Assembly: GCA_014762625.1 (NCBI GenBank)
Contig: JABURQ010000064.1
Location: forward strand, 1 to 33,987
Source: Planctomycetaceae bacterium
GTDB taxonomy: Bacteria; Planctomycetota; Planctomycetia; Planctomycetales; Planctomycetaceae
Reading direction: 5' to 3'
DNA length: 33,987 nt
In this document: positions 24,190 to 33,795 of the stretch, piece after piece
How positions within the stretch are numbered: position 1 is the stretch's first letter
Layout of the letters: each line of letters opens with the position of its first letter
Translations under genes and position numbers: made by a program
The notes under the pieces: generated by a model
What the model was told of the DNA's origin: nothing
Databases searched by the model: none
The model's input: the letters and a program-made list of their open reading frames with translations, nothing else

Positions 24190-26733
24190 ATGAAGCTTTC
24201 CACCATCTCGGCACTTTTCCTGACTTTACTTTGGGGATCGATCGCCGCCTGCGCCCCCCAATCAGAGGATGCTGCGGAAACTCAGTTCTATCAGGGGCTT
24301 CGCGATCGCGGTTTTTTTTCACTGGTCGAAAGCACGCTTCAGACGGAGTTGGCCGAACCTCAACTCACTCCCGACCGCAGAACGTTTTTGCAACTGGAAC
24401 TCTCGCGGACGTTCGCGGCCCATGCAAGACAACGACTCGGAGAGGAACAGGCCGAACTCTGGCAACTGGCCCAATCCGTCGCGGATTCCGGGTTGAACAG
24501 CGATCAGGAGACGCAATGGACATCTCGGCTGCTAGTGCAGTCCGTGCTGATCCCTCTGGAAAAAACTCGCTTCGAACTCGAGCAGTTTCGCATTATTCCG
24601 CATGAAATCAACGCGGAACGCCTCCGTACCGAACTCCAGACGCATCTCCTGCAACTTCGCAAGCTGGAGCTGGAATTGAATCAGAGATCGCGAGCCGTTC
24701 TTTCGCGGTACCGCGCCAACCCGCAACAGATCTCTCCCTACAAATTTCGCTCCGTCCAAAAGCAGGTCATCTATGAGATCTCCCAAACGTTGACGGAAAT
24801 TGCGGAACTGGAATATGAGAGTCCCGAGGACCGATCTCCTCCTATTCGAGCGGCCCTCGATCGTTTGAAGGTCTTAACGAGTGGCGCAGAAGACGAACGG
24901 ATCACCTGGAAAGCGAGACTTCTGGTGATTCGCTGCGAGTGGTTGCAACACGATTTTGAAACCGCTCGGGTTTACGCTCGTCGATACGAAGACGATTGGC
25001 CGACTTCATTCCAGTCCGCGGCAGTCGGAGAACAGGCTCGTATCGATCTGGAAAATCAACAACCGGATCTCGCTCTGGAACGCCTGCACGAATGGAGAAA
25101 CAAACGCGGATACCTCTCCGGCGAACTCTCTCTGCTTCAGCTTCAAGCGTTGTCATCACTATGGGAACTCGCTTGGAAGAACGAACGGCCTCAACTCGCC
25201 AAGGATCTCGCACAACAACTCGAAGCTGCTGCCCAGAGAACGCAACGGGAAATCGGTGGCATCTGGGGCTGGCGATCGCGACTCCTGGTGGACTATAGCC
25301 GTCAAGCGACTCAATACGGTCCGGAAGTCGCATCTCGACTCCGAACCGCGCAGGCCACCTATCAGCGCGGCGACTACGAAGCCGCCGTGTCGCAGTACAA
25401 AGGCATCGCCGACCTGGCAAAATCTCAAGGACGGACCGAAGTCGCGTCGGAAATGTTATTTACCGCCGGTTCGATATTGTTGCAGAGGGGCGACTACGAA
25501 ACAGCACGCGATCTCTTTCAAAACTCTGTCAATCAATTTCCGGAGGCGAAGCGTGCCGCCGACTGTCATTTGATGTGGGTCTGGTGCCTGGGAAAAACCT
25601 ACGAACAAAGCCCCACCAAAAGCCATCGGCTCGCTTACACAGCCGCTCTGGACGAGCACCTCGAAAGATTTAAAGACAGCGAGACCACGGGGAGCGCTCA
25701 TCTCATGTACGGCCAGTTTCAGGAAAACCGGTTACAGGACACCATCGCGGTCGAACACTATCTCGCCGTCCCGACGAATCACGCCAAAGCCGTCATCGCT
25801 GATTTATCACTGCTGCGCTGCTATCGCAAAATATTGGAACGACTCAAAGCTCAAAATCGATCCACCAACGCCTGGCGGGATGAAGCGATTCGCCAAGTCT
25901 CTGCTAGAACGGCCCAATATCCTCAGGAACCGAACCAGCTCTCCCCTCAGCAATGTCAGGCCATTCTGGGGCTGGTGAGACTTCAAATGGAACAGGGAAC
26001 TCGGGACGATCAGCAAATATCGGCGTCTCTGAACCGTGTCATCGAGGCCTGCTCGCTGAAAACGAACCAGGACGAATCGTCTCAATCGTGGAAGGAGACG
26101 GCCCTCGCCGCTTATCGCTTGAAAATCGTTTCTCTGGCTCAATCGGGACGCACGCGCGAAGCGGAAGCGTTAATCGCTCAGATCGCCAACGCCGGACGTC
26201 AATCATTACTGGAGCTTTTAAACGGTCTGTCGCAGGCCGCGGAGAAAGCCAATCCGCAAACCCAAAAAGGGATCGCGGAACTGCAACTGGAAACCTGCGA
26301 ATCACTCAACACTCAGCGGGACCTGCTCTCTCCCACTCAGCAACAATTACTGGACCGCACAAAAGCCCGCGCTTTGATTTTGGCGGAACGTTCCGTAGAA
26401 GCTCACGAGATGTACGAGGACTTGATTCAAAAATCCCCCGACGATCTCCAGCTTCGACGCGAACTGGCGAAGTCTCTTTCAGATTGTGGTACGGTCAGTT
26501 GTCATCATCGCGCGCTGGTGCACTGGCAGTATCTGGAAGATCATTCCAAGAAAGGAACGCTGGACTGGCTGCGGTATCGAGCGGAAGTGATTCAATCGCT
26601 GATTCATGTCGGCAAGTCGAAAGAAGCCGCGAAACTTCTGAAAATCACCCGACTGCTCTACCCCGAAATCGGTGACGAGACCCTTCGGGAAAAGTATTCA
26701 TCACTCCAACAAAAGATCGACCGCGACAAATGA
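24190..26733 (+). CDS. Large exported TPR protein, probable lipoprotein
   Basis: An 847-residue protein with a signal peptide ending at I18-A19-A20-C21, an acceptable lipobox (Sec signal peptidase I cleavage after ACA is an alternative). The rest is almost wholly helical, with many TPR-like units: LRTAQATYQRGDYEAAVSQY, MLFTAGSILLQRGDYETARD, LFQNSVNQFPEAKRAADCHL and, near the C-terminus, AEVIQSLIHVGKSKEAAKLL. The N-terminal third (about 130-260) is rich in Leu, Glu, Arg and Gln and may form coiled coil. Planctomycetes encode many such large exported TPR proteins without known partners; a scaffold in the envelope is an inference. GAGAGG lies eight bases before the ATG. The stop codon lies in the loop of the terminator hairpin. 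Confidence 0.85.
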   Translation: MKLSTISALFLTLLWGSIAACAPQSEDAAETQFYQGLRDRGFFSLVESTLQTELAEPQLTPDRRTFLQLELSRTFAAHARQRLGEEQAELWQLAQSVADSGLNSDQETQWTSRLLVQSVLIPLEKTRFELEQFRIIPHEINAERLRTELQTHLLQLRKLELELNQRSRAVLSRYRANPQQISPYKFRSVQKQVIYEISQTLTEIAELEYESPEDRSPPIRAALDRLKVLTSGAEDERITWKARLLVIRCEWLQHDFETARVYARRYEDDWPTSFQSAAVGEQARIDLENQQPDLALERLHEWRNKRGYLSGELSLLQLQALSSLWELAWKNERPQLAKDLAQQLEAAAQRTQREIGGIWGWRSRLLVDYSRQATQYGPEVASRLRTAQATYQRGDYEAAVSQYKGIADLAKSQGRTEVASEMLFTAGSILLQRGDYETARDLFQNSVNQFPEAKRAADCHLMWVWCLGKTYEQSPTKSHRLAYTAALDEHLERFKDSETTGSAHLMYGQFQENRLQDTIAVEHYLAVPTNHAKAVIADLSLLRCYRKILERLKAQNRSTNAWRDEAIRQVSARTAQYPQEPNQLSPQQCQAILGLVRLQMEQGTRDDQQISASLNRVIEACSLKTNQDESSQSWKETALAAYRLKIVSLAQSGRTREAEALIAQIANAGRQSLLELLNGLSQAAEKANPQTQKGIAELQLETCESLNTQRDLLSPTQQQLLDRTKARALILAERSVEAHEMYEDLIQKSPDDLQLRRELAKSLSDCGTVSCHHRALVHWQYLEDHSKKGTLDWLRYRAEVIQSLIHVGKSKEAAKLLKITRLLYPEIGDETLREKYSSLQQKIDRDK

Positions 26734-26754
26734 TTCTCGCGGTCGATCTGTTTT
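26715..26754. terminator. Bidirectional terminator enclosing the stop codon of the large TPR gene
   Basis: Arms gatcgaccgcga (26715-26726) and tcgcggtcgatc (26737-26748) form a perfect 12-bp stem with a 10-nt loop (26727-26736) that contains the TGA stop (26731-26733). A T-rich tract follows on the plus strand (tgtttt) and TTTT follows on the minus strand, so it probably also ends transcription of the convergent secreted-protein genes. Confidence 0.9.
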
Positions 26755-26778: not shown

Positions 26779-27525
26779 TCAGATTTCTGAATCAGACTCG
26801 GAGTCCTCGACAATCGGAGTCGGAGCGAGGTCCTTTTCTTGAGCACCAATATTTTGCATCATGCCGTTTACAGTCTGGGCGTGATACGGATGCATCGGAT
26901 CGATGCGACGTTGCCAAAGCACTGGGTTCGGAGCGAGCGGGTAATTGGCTCGGTTCGGCATCCATTGAGGCACGTATTGATAGGTATAGCCCAACTGCGT
27001 CGTGTCGGTCGGAGTATGCACCATCGGGTACTGAACTTCCGAGTATTTCATACCGGGAGTTCCATAGAATTGATTCGGCAAGTATCGTCGATAGGTGACC
27101 GGTTGGTGAAAGACGCGTGGATTCGATGTGGGAGCATAGAAACCATAGCTGGGATGCAAAGTTGCCGCATAAGGATCCTGGCTGAACCAGACATGAAGCG
27201 GCGTGGCGTATGTTTTGGGTTCCCAAGTTTTCCCGTACTCATCTTGGATTGCGTGACCATGGTGATGCTGCACGACCTGGCCGTTCTCGTCCAGAATGAT
27301 GCCTCCCTCCGGAATCGGCGCGGGAGGAACCTTCGGTCCATTGACCTCTCCAGCCACTTCCTCAGGTAAGGGAGCGGGCACATTGGCGAGTTTGCTCGCT
27401 GTCGTCTGTTGAATGCCGTCAGAAATGCGGACCACTCCCGGTTCCTCGGCCGATGCCAGCTGCGGAACAAATCCGACACCAAGCATCGCAGTGGCTAACA
27501 TCGTTCGAAGTGAGGGAAAGATCAT
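26779..27525 (-). CDS. Secreted protein of unknown function with GVVRISD motif, Pro/Tyr/His-rich
   Basis: A 248-residue protein with a Sec signal peptide (RTMLATAMLGVGFVPQLASA, cleavage after about residue 26). The mature protein begins EEPGVVRISDGIQQTT; GVVRISD sits at residues 30-36, the same position as in the neighbouring cysteine-rich protein. The middle is Pro-rich (PAPLPEEV, PPAPIPEGG), contains a VVQHHHGHA cluster, then a Tyr/Pro/Asn/Gln-rich region with many aromatic residues (HPSYGFYAP, YTYQYVPQWMP) and an acidic Ser/Asp/Glu end. Only the start region has any family-like feature. No enzyme motif. Such compositions are seen in structural envelope or surface proteins, but that is inference. 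AGGA lies nine bases before the ATG. First of three adjacent genes for secreted proteins on this strand, counted from the terminator. Confidence 0.78.
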   Translation of the reverse strand: MIFPSLRTMLATAMLGVGFVPQLASAEEPGVVRISDGIQQTTASKLANVPAPLPEEVAGEVNGPKVPPAPIPEGGIILDENGQVVQHHHGHAIQDEYGKTWEPKTYATPLHVWFSQDPYAATLHPSYGFYAPTSNPRVFHQPVTYRRYLPNQFYGTPGMKYSEVQYPMVHTPTDTTQLGYTYQYVPQWMPNRANYPLAPNPVLWQRRIDPMHPYHAQTVNGMMQNIGAQEKDLAPTPIVEDSESDSEI

Positions 27526-27604
27526 GTGACTGAATCCTGGTACTTGAAAATGACGATTTGTAGGGAAGACACCTTATCTCTAAATCTCTGACTCGTGATT
27601 TTCA

Positions 27605-28348
27605 TCACGGACGCGGCATCACTTGTGTTTGAGGATGACGCACAACATGCGGCATCGGGGGAGCCGGCAGCGGGTTGGCGACGGGTGTCAATCGGCTGCT
27701 GGGAACTCCCCAGCCGTAGTTGTAAACGGCACCCACATTGGGAGCGAGTGGAACGGACACATTCACACCGTAACCCTGGGCGGCATACATGGCCCCATCA
27801 CGCTGATCGACGTAACCGGGGTTAATCGGATAGCCAATGGTGTAGCATCCGAAGGGGGGCAGATTGCCGGGCCGGAAGTATCCGAATCGGTTTTGGGCTT
27901 TGCTCTTCTTACCGTTATGGTAGGGGCAATTCCCGTTTTTGCAGTGGGGACAATTTGGGTTGTAGTCCGCATGCTGATGATGATAGGGACAATTCCCCTT
28001 CTTGCAGTGTTCGCAATTCTGATGAAAGCCCTGATGTTGGCATCGGGGGCAGTCGCCGCGATAACGGTGCAGCGTGAACATGTCATCAAAGAGCCCGCGA
28101 AAATCACAAAAATTGTGAAAGTGAAAGCGTCCATTGCAATTGTCGCATTGGTCGCATTCTCCGGCAGGATCGGTTTCGCAGCCGAGTTCTTTCTGGACGG
28201 CGTGAGACTGCAATTTCATTTGCGTGCCCACCGTATCCTGGTCGCTGATTCTCACAACACCTGCGGTCGGTTCTTGAGCTCCCGCGATTGTTGCGGAGAA
28301 CGCAACCACGACGATCATCAGTCCGGCCAGTCGAGTCAAAAGTTTCAT
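27605..28348 (-). CDS. Secreted Cys/His-rich protein with repeated C-x-x-C units and GVVRISD motif
   Basis: Taken from the ATG at 28348 (longer frame to 28417 is less likely), a 247-residue protein with a clear signal peptide (MKLLTRLAGLMIVVVAFSAT, then IAGA and QEP). GVVRISD is at residues 30-36. Residues 57-141 hold thirteen cysteines (one more at 168), mostly as C-x-x-C pairs: ECDQCDNC, DCPRCQHQ, and two near-identical 16-residue units, NCEHCKKGNCPYHHQH (111-126) and NCPHCKNGNCPYHNGK (132-147). This could bind metal (zinc-ribbon-like) or form disulfides in the periplasm; there is no C-x-x-C-H haem site. The C-terminal third is Gly/Pro/Tyr/Asn-rich and uncharacterised. A frame on the opposite strand is an antisense artefact. 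No homologous family recognised. Confidence 0.78.
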   Translation of the reverse strand: MKLLTRLAGLMIVVVAFSATIAGAQEPTAGVVRISDQDTVGTQMKLQSHAVQKELGCETDPAGECDQCDNCNGRFHFHNFCDFRGLFDDMFTLHRYRGDCPRCQHQGFHQNCEHCKKGNCPYHHQHADYNPNCPHCKNGNCPYHNGKKSKAQNRFGYFRPGNLPPFGCYTIGYPINPGYVDQRDGAMYAAQGYGVNVSVPLAPNVGAVYNYGWGVPSSRLTPVANPLPAPPMPHVVRHPQTQVMPRP

Positions 28349-28445
28349 GGCGTTCACCAATCCCTTTACTGTCTTTACTTTGGGTTGATCCGAAACCATT
28401 ACGGACAGAAGCCTCATTGGCCTCTCGTCCCGGCATTGGTTGTTT

Positions 28446-28985
28446 TCACCTCTTGAAACCGTTAAAGCCCGAGAGGATTCCGTGTTTTGGTTTGTACTTC
28501 ACATCGACCTTGGTTCCGGTCAGATGCCAGACATCGTTACTGCGAACTCCCCAGGGAGTCACAATCCAGCCACCTTTAACGACGTAGTAAAAAGGTGGGT
28601 ACATGGCTTGGTAACGATGCTTGTAGAGCATCTCGTGAGGATAAAAAGCCTGGTTCGTATGCATCGTGCCCCCCACTTGGTGAGGAACGTTGGGAATCGG
28701 AGAGGGATAGAGCGCGGCACCCGTTTGCGGATACGCATTAATCATTTGTCCGGGAGCAGGTTGCAGTGACGGCGGTGTCGCGGCTCCCTGCTGTTGAGAC
28801 GCTCTCATCGCTCCGTAATTCATGGTGTGTGTTGGGAGTAAATTCGGCTGCACGCCACCCATCGGCTGAATGCCGTATTGATGCCCTGCCGGCGTGACCT
28901 GAGGCAGTTGGGCTTCAGCGCCGTTCAGTAAAAATGCAGTCAGCCAAACGGCCACTACAGTTTGAATAATCAGTGAGCGGGACAT
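28446..28985 (-). CDS. Small secreted protein of unknown function, Pro/Gln/Tyr-rich
   Basis: A 179-residue protein with a signal peptide (IIQTVVAVWLTAFLLNGAEA, cleavage after about residue 25). The mature N-terminal half is Pro/Gln/Met/Gly-rich and probably unstructured (GHQYGIQPMGGVQPNLLP). The second half is aromatic and looks like a small folded domain: AFYPHEMLYKHRYQAMYPPFYYVVKG, GGWIVTPWGV, DVWHLTGTKVDVKYKPKHG. It lacks GVVRISD but shares composition and location with the next two genes. A very strong AAGGAGG lies seven bases before the ATG, which suggests high expression. It is probably the first gene of a three-gene group reading toward 26779, although gaps of 79-97 bp leave room for separate promoters. 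No family recognised. Confidence 0.78.
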   Translation of the reverse strand: MSRSLIIQTVVAVWLTAFLLNGAEAQLPQVTPAGHQYGIQPMGGVQPNLLPTHTMNYGAMRASQQQGAATPPSLQPAPGQMINAYPQTGAALYPSPIPNVPHQVGGTMHTNQAFYPHEMLYKHRYQAMYPPFYYVVKGGWIVTPWGVRSNDVWHLTGTKVDVKYKPKHGILSGFNGFKR

Positions 28986-29467
28986 TCTGCTCCCTCCTTG
29001 GGTTGTCGATGTCTCATTCTTCGTCGGGCGAGGTTACTTACGCCGATTCCTCCGACGTGGACTCCCAACGATGGGAATAGTCATAATTCAGTTTCGGCAC
29101 AGATGATTCCGTTCGATGAGGTCTGATTCCCGAATGGAGACGAGCGGAAATCAAAACGAGAAATGTAATCGGTCAAAACGTTATAACCCGCAATCCTTGT
29201 CACAATGCCGCAAAACTAGCTAACATGCATTCATCGCCGCATCAACATCACCCGCACACCTCCTACCGAGGGCGTATCACACTGATATTCCAGTAAATTC
29301 CGCCCTTGATCCCGATGCCACTTCCGGAGAAACTGTGTCGCCGGACTGGTGAGGCGCTGTCAAGCTGGGTAGTCTTGAGCGACTCTTTTCATTGAAGGAA
29401 TTATGCGAATTTTCAGGTTCTGTGGATGACCTCCCAGAACTGCACTGTCAGGAAGACGGAGTAACCA
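28986..29467. other. 482-bp divergent intergenic region
   Basis: Between the secreted three-gene cluster and the topoisomerase genes. It should carry two divergent promoters, but no convincing -35/-10 pair was found. Seen in it: an 8-bp palindrome gttataac near 29180; and, close to the topoisomerase start, a hairpin with arms gttctg (29417-29422) and cagaac (29435-29440). A tiny frame at 29403 (ATG with AAGGA three bases upstream, 8 codons, M-R-I-F-R-F-C-G) is a possible leader peptide. No RNA gene or full-length protein gene is supported. Confidence 0.45.
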
Positions 29468-31828
<2,361 letters not shown>

Positions 31829-31863
31829 CCTTCGGATCACTTCTCGCTCGAAACGGATCATTC

Positions 31864-33795
31864 ATGGCGACAGCGGCGAAAAATGGCAACGGAAAATACA
31901 GTGCGGACGATATCGAGGTCCTGGAAGGCCTCGAAGCGGTACGTCGTCGTCCGTCGATGTATATCGGAGGCGTCGATAATCGCGGACTCCATCACCTACT
32001 CTGGGAAATCATTGACAACTCGGTCGACGAATATCTGGCGAGTGAAGCCGACCGACTCACCGTCACGCTCCATAAGGATAGCGCCTCAGCCACCGTCAGC
32101 GACAACGGTCGCGGCATCCCCGTCGATAAGCACAAAAAGCTGAAAAAGTCCGCTTTGGAAGTGATCCTGACGACGCTGCACGCCGGCGGGAAATTTTCCG
32201 ATAAGAATTACGCCCGCAGCGGCGGGCTCCACGGCGTCGGTTCGTCCGTTGTGAATGCGCTCTCGGAAGAGATGGTGGCCACCATCCATCGCGACGGCCA
32301 CGAATGGGTCCAACGCTACAAACGGGGTCGCCCGACGACGCCGGTCAAAAAAGTGAAAAAGTTTCGTGGGCACGGGACCTCGATCTATTTTCGCCCTGAC
32401 GACTCGATCTTTCGAAAGACGATCTTCAACGCCGAGACCATCAAGCAGCATCTCGAGGATATTTCCTACATCCACGGAGGATTGAAAATCCTCTTCGAGG
32501 ACGAAGCGAAAGGGGAAAAGGTCGAATTCCACCACCCGGAAGGAATCACCGGCTATCTCCAAAAGCTGACCACAGAGAGCGATAAAAAAGTCGTTCACGA
32601 ACAGATCTTCTCCGCCGAGAAGGAAGAGGGAAATACCAAGGTGGAAGTCGTCCTGCATTGGACCGAATCGACCGACGAACAGATACGAAGTTACGTGAAC
32701 GGCATTCGCACGCATGGAGGAGGCACCCACGAGAACGGCTTCAAAGCCGGCATCACGAAAGCCGTCCGCAACTACATGGACGTGCATAACATCAAACAAA
32801 AAGGTCTCAATATCACGGCGGACGACATCCGGGAAGGATGTATGGCGATCGCTTCGATCTTTTTATCCGACCCGATGTTTCAAGGACAAACGAAAGAAAA
32901 ACTCAATAATCCGGAAATGACCGGCTGGGTGGAAGGGCTGGTTCGTCCGGCGCTCGAAACCTGGCTCAATAACAATCCCTCGATCGCCGATGCAGTCATC
33001 GGTCGCATCGTCCTCGCCGCCCGCGCTCGACTGGCAAGCCGCGAGGCCTCAAGCGGCGTGCGTCGGAAGTCGCCTTCCAAGCGAACGAGTCTTCCGGGGA
33101 AACTCCTCGACTGCCGCTCGACGAAACCCGAGGAATCCGAACTGTTCATCGTAGAAGGAGATTCCGCCGGCGGAACCGCCGCAATGGGGAGAGACAGCCG
33201 GACTCAGGCCGTATTGCCTCTGCGGGGAAAAATCCTGAATACCGAAACCCTCGCCGCGTCGAAGGCCCTCAAGAATCAGGAAGTCAAAGATCTGGTCGAA
33301 ACGTTGGGGACCGGACTCGGAGAACATTTCGACATTCACAAACTCCGTTACGGCAAAGTGATCCTGTTGATGGATGCCGATAGCGACGGCTTTCACATCA
33401 GCACCCTGTTGCTGACGTTCTTTTTCCGTCACATGCCGGAACTGATTCGTTCGGGCAAACTCTATCTGGCGCAGCCTCCCCTGTATCGAATTCTGGTCGG
33501 GAAAGAGACGATCTACGCCCAGGACGACGCCGAGAAAGAGGAAATCCTGAACAGCCTCCCGGAAAACCGGAAAACCGAGGTGATTCGCTTCAAGGGCCTG
33601 GGCGAGATGTCGGCCAAGCAACTCAAGGAAACCACACTCGACCCCAACGAACGCATCCTGCTCAAAGTTGATATCGACAGTCAACTGGAAGCGGACGCCA
33701 CCTTTTCTCAGCTACTCGGGAAGGACGCCTCCGAACGCTACAAAGTGATCATGGAGGAAGCCAGCTTCGTCGATCTGGAAGAAATCGATCTGTAG
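31864..33795 (+). CDS. Type IIA DNA topoisomerase subunit B (DNA gyrase/topoisomerase IV subunit B, divergent)
   Basis: A 643-residue ATPase subunit. The ATG at 31864 is chosen over one at 31804, which lies inside the A-subunit gene and adds an unlikely N-terminus. GHKL ATPase motifs: YIGGVDNRGLHHLLWEIIDN with E48 (general base) and N52, DNGRGIP (80-86), GGLHGVGSSVVNALS (120-134), and switch lysine K344 in FQGQTKEKL. Toprim motifs: E431-GDSAGG, PLRGKILN, and D504-A-D-S-D-G (33373-33390), here ADSDGFHI in place of the usual ADVDGSHI. Length fits ParE or short GyrB rather than the roughly 800-residue GyrB with insert. Together with the A subunit it should form a heterotetramer that relaxes, supercoils or decatenates DNA. 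Confidence 0.94.
   Translation: MATAAKNGNGKYSADDIEVLEGLEAVRRRPSMYIGGVDNRGLHHLLWEIIDNSVDEYLASEADRLTVTLHKDSASATVSDNGRGIPVDKHKKLKKSALEVILTTLHAGGKFSDKNYARSGGLHGVGSSVVNALSEEMVATIHRDGHEWVQRYKRGRPTTPVKKVKKFRGHGTSIYFRPDDSIFRKTIFNAETIKQHLEDISYIHGGLKILFEDEAKGEKVEFHHPEGITGYLQKLTTESDKKVVHEQIFSAEKEEGNTKVEVVLHWTESTDEQIRSYVNGIRTHGGGTHENGFKAGITKAVRNYMDVHNIKQKGLNITADDIREGCMAIASIFLSDPMFQGQTKEKLNNPEMTGWVEGLVRPALETWLNNNPSIADAVIGRIVLAARARLASREASSGVRRKSPSKRTSLPGKLLDCRSTKPEESELFIVEGDSAGGTAAMGRDSRTQAVLPLRGKILNTETLAASKALKNQEVKDLVETLGTGLGEHFDIHKLRYGKVILLMDADSDGFHISTLLLTFFFRHMPELIRSGKLYLAQPPLYRILVGKETIYAQDDAEKEEILNSLPENRKTEVIRFKGLGEMSAKQLKETTLDPNERILLKVDIDSQLEADATFSQLLGKDASERYKVIMEEASFVDLEEIDL

Follow-up and report, generated by a model that had tools for sequence, protein, structure and literature searches.

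A conserved cluster of genes for putatively exported proteins in the planctomycete orders Planctomycetales and Pirellulales

Three adjacent genes of a Planctomycetaceae bacterium, labelled gC, gB and gA (cluster genes 1, 2 and 3), encode putatively exported proteins that belong to no recognised family and are kept as a cluster across their own family. A related arrangement, in which a shorter gC precedes a single gene (gBA) that carries the gB signature and then the gA signature, occurs in nearly all of the Pirellulales genomes searched. We propose that the proteins may work together as a structural element of the outer envelope. The window, by which we mean the whole stretch of DNA analysed, is the 33,987-nt contig JABURQ010000064.1, and inspection of its open reading frames (ORFs) found the three genes side by side on the minus strand, where a preliminary description of this DNA had placed them. 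The features are as follows.

28446..28985, minus strand: gC, first gene, 179 aa; signal peptide, Gln/Pro/Tyr-rich linker, conserved core and a predicted long beta-hairpin (residues 123-164)
Within gC, minus strand: conserved core around LYPSP...GGTxxTNQAFxPHEMLYxHxY
27605..28348, minus strand: gB, second gene, 247 aa; signal peptide, GVVRISD motif, Cys/His-rich spacer and C-terminal signature
Within gB, minus strand: C-terminal signature around QGYGxxVxVPLAPNVxxxYNYGWGxPSSRLTP
26779..27525, minus strand: gA, third gene, 248 aa; signal peptide, GVVRISD motif, Pro-rich spacer and C-terminal signature
Within gA, minus strand: C-terminal signature around PTDTTQLGYxYQxVPxW
28992..28999, minus strand: strong Shine-Dalgarno sequence AAGGAGGG, 6 nt before the gC ATG
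26711..26752, both strands: bidirectional terminator-like hairpin between gA and the convergent TPR-protein gene
24190-26733, convergent to gA: TPR-protein gene, its 3' end overlapped by the hairpin
29468..31828, plus strand: gyrA (listed TTG start), divergent neighbour of gC, often kept; a synteny marker outside the claimed system
31804..33795, plus strand: gyrB (listed TTG start), the next neighbour after gyrA, often kept

Each of the three N-termini reads by eye as a Sec signal peptide, in agreement with the preliminary description, and the start of gB is most likely the ATG at 28348 (MKLLTRL) rather than the longest-ORF start at 28417. The very strong ribosome-binding site ascribed to the first gene is present (AAGGAGGG), and upstream inspection found no comparable Shine-Dalgarno sequence before gB or gA. 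The hairpin said to end the group has arms at 26711-26729 and 26734-26752 that are 89% complementary, and it was stable on both strands (folding z of -6.7 on the minus strand and -5.9 on the plus strand, with 0/200 shuffles as stable), although a simple terminator scan of the window did not report it. Its overlap with the end of the convergent TPR gene allows it to serve the genes on either side. The 3' end of the TPR gene itself makes up one arm of this shared terminator, and a TPR relative lay within the fetched stretch at 9 of the 41 family loci described below.

The unusual composition was also borne out. By composition count, Pro, Tyr, His and Gln together account for 29.4% of gA, 26.3% of gB and 29.6% of gC; in the 19 other window ORFs taken as genes the mean is 14.6% and the highest value 17.5%. 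Cys-richness applies to gB only, which has 14 Cys (5.7% versus 0.9%) and 14 His, with CxHCKxGNCPYH present twice; the window's gA and gC have no Cys.

The claim that the proteins belong to no recognised family held when the search was widened to their relatives. Alignments were made for gC (38 of 41 rows kept), gB (34 of 41), gA (37 of 40), gBA (19 of 20) and Pirellulales gC (20 of 20), rows with odd ends or lengths being dropped; the window's gB went into its alignment with one codon too many (27605-28351). Pfam and NCBIfam scans of the window proteins and of all 148 members of these five alignments gave no convincing match. Five library families, DUF963 (E 4e-7), FAM222A, CFAP143, GRP and TIGR01370, each matched one alignment member, which we take as low complexity or chance, and no curated family of either library was common to the members. 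The gC, gB and gA profiles had no PDB sequence match at E <= 1, and a Foldseek search with the gC model returned nothing at E <= 0.001. Its top fold matches, none of them significant (best E 0.18), were beta-pore stems, with flagellar LP-ring chains lower down. Peptide motifs of the three proteins were not found in the literature searched; the available portion of the Gupta 2012 signature paper (PMC3444138) does not describe them, and that of a transposon-screen paper on Planctopirus limnophila (PMC10632474) does not name gC, gB or gA. With no known family and no literature account found within these searches, the cluster stands, as far as they go, as an undescribed set of conserved exported proteins, which is what the preliminary description had suspected.

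The proteins combine conserved ends with a freely varying middle. Homologues of gB range from 176 to 1,613 aa, the C-terminal signature being kept while the middle varies, and across 41 loci the number of Cys per protein is 0-40 in gB (0 in L097, 2 in L125 and 40 in L124), 0-30 in gA and 0-7 in gC. The 1,613-aa gB homologue (L103:6722-11563, genome G081) has a long Pro-rich middle between two recognisable ends, and a tandem-repeat scan of it turned up nothing beyond an 18-base repeat in two copies. Most invariant columns hold Pro, Gly or aromatic residues and a few hold polar ones; they do not look like a catalytic set. In structure models of low overall confidence, the window's gC consists of the signal peptide, a disordered stretch and a hairpin of two ~20-residue strands (block pLDDT 78-94, pTM 0.30), and the window's gA is mostly disordered (mean pLDDT 53.9, pTM 0.23). 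The PTDTTQLGYxYQ motif of gA is nearly invariant despite the predicted disorder.

Codon comparisons indicate that gC, gB and gA evolve under purifying selection. The dN/dS ratio was 0.07-0.18 in 8 of 9 within-genus pairs; dS was unsaturated (0.41-0.49) only in the three L112-L113 pairs, whose dN/dS was 0.10-0.18, while five of the remaining pairs had dS of 2.1-2.6 and one was saturated. Spurious ORFs are ruled out by dN/dS together with conservation, and independent orphan genes by synteny. A hydrophobic N-terminus was seen in most homologues; as the start codon was picked for the best hydrophobic segment, this recurrence is an illustration and not a test.

Within Planctomycetaceae the genes are near universal and nearly always present in one copy: gC was found in 163, gB in 160 and gA in 151 of 170 genomes. 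The unbiased figure for order and strand comes from the 150 matches listed for each of gA and gC, among which 142 genomes had both genes. In 132 of these the two share a contig, and there gA always follows gC, on the strand of gC and within 6 kb; in the other 10 the two were on different contigs. Thus, among the matches listed, homologues are not scattered, and the order is conserved across several genera, as the preliminary description had anticipated for a real cluster. A profile search of 41 loci (40 chosen plus the window) found gC in 41, gB in 41 and gA in 40, with gyrA in 31 and gyrB in 24 of the fetched stretches, mostly next to gC and divergent from it; these loci were picked for gene proximity and so illustrate synteny without measuring it. 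Nine ORFs at these loci were matched by both the gA and the gB profile, which we put down to the shared head of the two proteins. Distances between gC sequences correlated with those between gyrA sequences (Mantel r 0.71, 31 loci), as did gA distances (Mantel r 0.71, 30 loci), with 0/999 permutations as high in either case, as expected for vertical inheritance. A function could not be read from the neighbours: gyrA-gyrB is frequent and gives no functional hint, and the downstream neighbours vary.

Named carriers of gC in the order Planctomycetales include Gimesia, Schlesneria, Fuerstiella (including Fuerstiella marisgermanici), Planctomicrobium, Thalassoglobus neptunius, Planctopirus limnophila, Polystyrenella longa and Alienimonas californiensis. 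Four metagenome bins with a gC relative are labelled Candidatus Kuenenia stuttgartiensis, a label taken as wrong, since one of their contigs was assigned to Planctomycetaceae; the label of a bin called Rhodopirellula, which has a gC relative, was likewise taken as wrong. One genome (G168) has two cluster copies near the ends of two contigs (L125 and L126), with differing flanks (gyrA side versus TPR side). Their gA and gB look alike, and they are perhaps one locus that was broken and duplicated in assembly.

The genes extend beyond the window's family. The gC profile, run on a class sample of 297 genomes, found a relative in 150 of them, comprising 82 family members (two family genomes had no match) and 68 others. 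At all 20 loci fetched from these 68 non-family genomes, a second gene for an exported protein, gBA, follows gC on the same strand. The order is Pirellulales, since family f5, that of genome G173, also includes Rosistilla; Rosistilla oblonga is a named carrier. A gBA profile was built first from the 12 of 20 loci that were clear by eye and proved to be present at the remaining 8 as well; in Pirellulales it matched 111 of 117 genomes and 69 of 72 genera. The six genomes without a match (G536, G550, G554, G370, G574 and G577, of which G370 has gC) are possible losses, misses or assembly gaps. At 3 of the 20 loci (L166, L168 and L170) the gC-gBA pair is divergent to gyrA-gyrB, which suggests that this neighbourhood is older than the split of Planctomycetales and Pirellulales. 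Many of the short Pirellulales gC proteins (L165, L173, L177, L179 and others) end in an alternating strand that closes with WW or YW, and most Pirellulales gBA proteins end in RGPW or RAPW; such ends could be an outer-membrane targeting tail.

Elsewhere the searches were negative. In the class sample, none of the genomes matched outside the window's family came from families f2, f3, f4, f6 or f8. Three of 45 Isosphaerales genomes gave a gBA match at E <= 1 (best 0.03), each a short fragment, and two of 81 genomes of Gemmata's order did so, one at E 0.005 with three stops and one partial at E 0.6; none of these matches is convincing. Kolteria novifilia had neither gC nor gBA, and Isosphaera pallida, Paludisphaera borealis and Gemmata obscuriglobus were negative in the cluster searches. 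In a phylum sample of 149 genomes, the two gC profiles between them matched only seven family members, including the window's own genome, and one Pirellulales genome, leaving 141 without a match. These absences are bounded by the limited number of first-look candidates scored per genome (11-13 in the class searches and 34-90 in the order searches). The 'lineage-specific' label of the preliminary description therefore stands in that the genes are restricted among the genomes searched, but the lineage is wider than it implied, covering two whole orders.

How does one gene in Pirellulales relate to two in the window's family? Profile comparison with hhalign aligned gB to the first conserved part of gBA with a score of 77.8 and probability 97 (maximum 25.5 in 98 column shuffles), and gA to the second with a score of 38.5 and a moderate probability of 64 (maximum 19.4 in 96 column shuffles). 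Fused forms also occur within the family. Thirteen family loci were picked for a separate gA that was missing, weak or far (12 fetched for the purpose and L130 earlier). Of these, 10, from six genera, have a fused ORF matching the gB profile in its first part and the gA profile in its second; the remaining three, all of genus g32, have gB alone, with a separate gA in two. Given gBA in Pirellulales and these fused family loci, gB and gA are most simply read as two halves of one ancestral gene, of which the fused form would be the older. Such a gBA gene would have been duplicated, with both copies keeping the head and each losing the other's tail. GVVRISD follows the signal peptide in both gB and gA. 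The exact GVVRISD-type DNA pattern has four matches in the window's genome. Two of them are the motifs of gA and gB, in frame; each of the remaining two falls on the strand opposite a long ORF and shares its frame with none of the listed ORFs. A genome-wide sorting signal is therefore unsupported for the exact pattern. Homology of gC to gBA or gA was also unsupported (hhalign probability 7 and 28).

The distribution can be set against cell plan. Both carrier orders are said to bud at a pole and to switch between sessile and motile life (PMC7716846). Most of the named carriers have pear-shaped or ovoid cells with a budding pole (PMC7716846; for Rosistilla, PMC7716947), and descriptions of Pirellulales species include polar pits, fibres or a holdfast (PMC7717034, PMC7716947), the species of PMC7717034 being from the carrier order and not matched individually to searched genomes. 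Among the non-carriers, Isosphaera and Paludisphaera are spherical with crateriform pits all over (PMC7716859), Kolteria buds laterally with pits not observed (PMC12288469, PMC7716859), and Gemmata obscuriglobus is listed without stalk or holdfast (PMC12288469). These trait tables are sparse, and 'not observed' differs from absence. The polar correlate is blurred by G. obscuriglobus, which is a non-carrier yet listed as spherical to pear-shaped, budding and dimorphic (PMC12288469). Among carriers, a stalk was not observed in some, and Thalassoglobus neptunia is listed as round and Planctopirus limnophila as spherical to ovoid (PMC7716846). A general role in holdfasts is unlikely, as a holdfast is reported for P. 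borealis (PMC7716859), which lacks the genes. A pit component would be expected wherever pits are reported, which is not what was found: I. pallida and P. borealis are reported with ubiquitous pits and were negative for the genes; a component of pits restricted to the pole would be compatible. The distribution thus speaks against a tie to budding or crateriform pits in general and loosely fits a polar structure, although a single shared ancestry could explain both the genes and the traits of the two orders, so that the correlation is weak evidence.

The export signals, the conserved end motifs round a spacer of free length and the lack of a catalytic-looking set together suggest structural envelope proteins that co-assemble. 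We propose that gC, gB and gA, most simply derived from an ancestral gC and a fused gBA, would be exported and build one structural element in the outer envelope of both orders, a proposal we put at about an even chance. The gB and gA proteins would be tethers or matrix proteins, with GVVRISD at the N-terminal end, the aromatic signature at the C-terminal end and a disordered Pro/Cys-rich spacer between, and would probably take on an ordered form only once bound to a partner; gC, with its predicted beta-hairpin, would be a more compact partner. The most likely site would be a polar attachment or fibre apparatus, although the polar site, taken alone, is put forward tentatively. The preliminary description had spoken of one surface or envelope system. 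Its 'one system' gains from the shared order (132/132 among the matches listed) and from the gB-gA fusion in other lineages, which supports joint action; the envelope is their presumed location.

Several other readings were weighed. The proteins might instead be periplasmic or outer-membrane factors for assembly or quality control, for example in appendage biogenesis, and not building material. We consider this unlikely, though it is a reading with points in its favour: the genes, mostly present once per genome, occur almost throughout two orders, as housekeeping factors do, and the proteins are small, with short conserved motifs that resemble docking peptides. The gC and gA models, however, contain no folded catalytic or chaperone domain, and the free variation in length and Cys content (most marked in gB) suits a material better than a machine part. 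It is rather improbable, too, that gB handles metals or thiols, its Cys/His-rich spacer binding metal or forming a redox or disulfide network that protects the envelope. The twice-present Cys/His motif of the window's gB and the many Cys-rich homologues would fit such a role, but Cys are among the least conserved parts, the window's gA and gC lack them, and the invariant columns are mostly aromatic, Pro, Gly and other non-Cys residues.

We see little chance that the proteins are developmental or lifestyle signals released from the cell to govern a swarmer/sessile switch; of all the readings this is the least probable. Signals are not usually inherited vertically with a conserved core, which counts against it. 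The small size and export of the proteins would suit signals, as would the polar budding and sessile/motile switch of both carrier orders (PMC7716846), yet G. obscuriglobus, listed as dimorphic (PMC12288469), is negative. A slim chance is given to a pore, in which several gC hairpins would come together as an outer-membrane barrel, for instance as part of a pit, and gB and gA would be its partners in the periplasm. The two predicted ~20-residue strands and the likeness of the best fold matches to beta-pore stems speak for it, but those matches are not significant and any long hairpin can match such stems. Isosphaeraceae, moreover, are reported to have pits (PMC7716859), yet gBA was unconvincing in 45 genomes and gC matched none of the f2 genomes of the class sample. 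In Pirellulales, gC is also much shorter.

A Caulobacter-type holdfast combines polysaccharide export with anchor proteins. It resembles the proposed system in that polar surface attachment is a possible role of the cluster; the likeness was tested via library scans only, and a holdfast is reported in a non-carrier (PMC7716859). Another comparison is with the YTV-domain Cys-rich cell-wall proteins, which are planctomycete-specific and reported in Gemmataceae (PMC8567305, citing Hieu et al. 2008). Like the cluster proteins, they are exported, Cys-rich, planctomycete-specific and candidate envelope material. However, Pfam scans found the YTV domain in 0 of 148 alignment members at E <= 0.01, the window's gC and gA have no Cys, and the cluster was not found in the order of Gemmata (gBA profile, 81 genomes). 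Planctopirus limnophila, a carrier, has small polar pits, a stalk and fibres (PMC5394234), structures of the kind whose parts the cluster could encode, although the available part of that paper ties no gene to them and pits all over the cell occur in non-carriers.

The cluster is a neat candidate for a gene split, in which gB and gA share an export head and keep one tail each while their relatives are in one piece. Few parts are known for the polar pits, fibres and stalks of planctomycetes or for their FtsZ-free budding, and the cluster offers a small and concrete list of targets; it is carried by P. limnophila, a tractable species for which a published transposon screen exists (PMC10632474) and in whose genome (G092) the three genes lie on contig 1 at about 150.4-152.5 kb. 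We think it possible, though unlikely, that with this cluster a first set of genes specific to the polar cell plan of the two orders has come to light, encoding a self-assembling tether complex at one pole. If true, this complex would organise the fibre or attachment apparatus, or mark the pole from which these FtsZ-independent bacteria bud.
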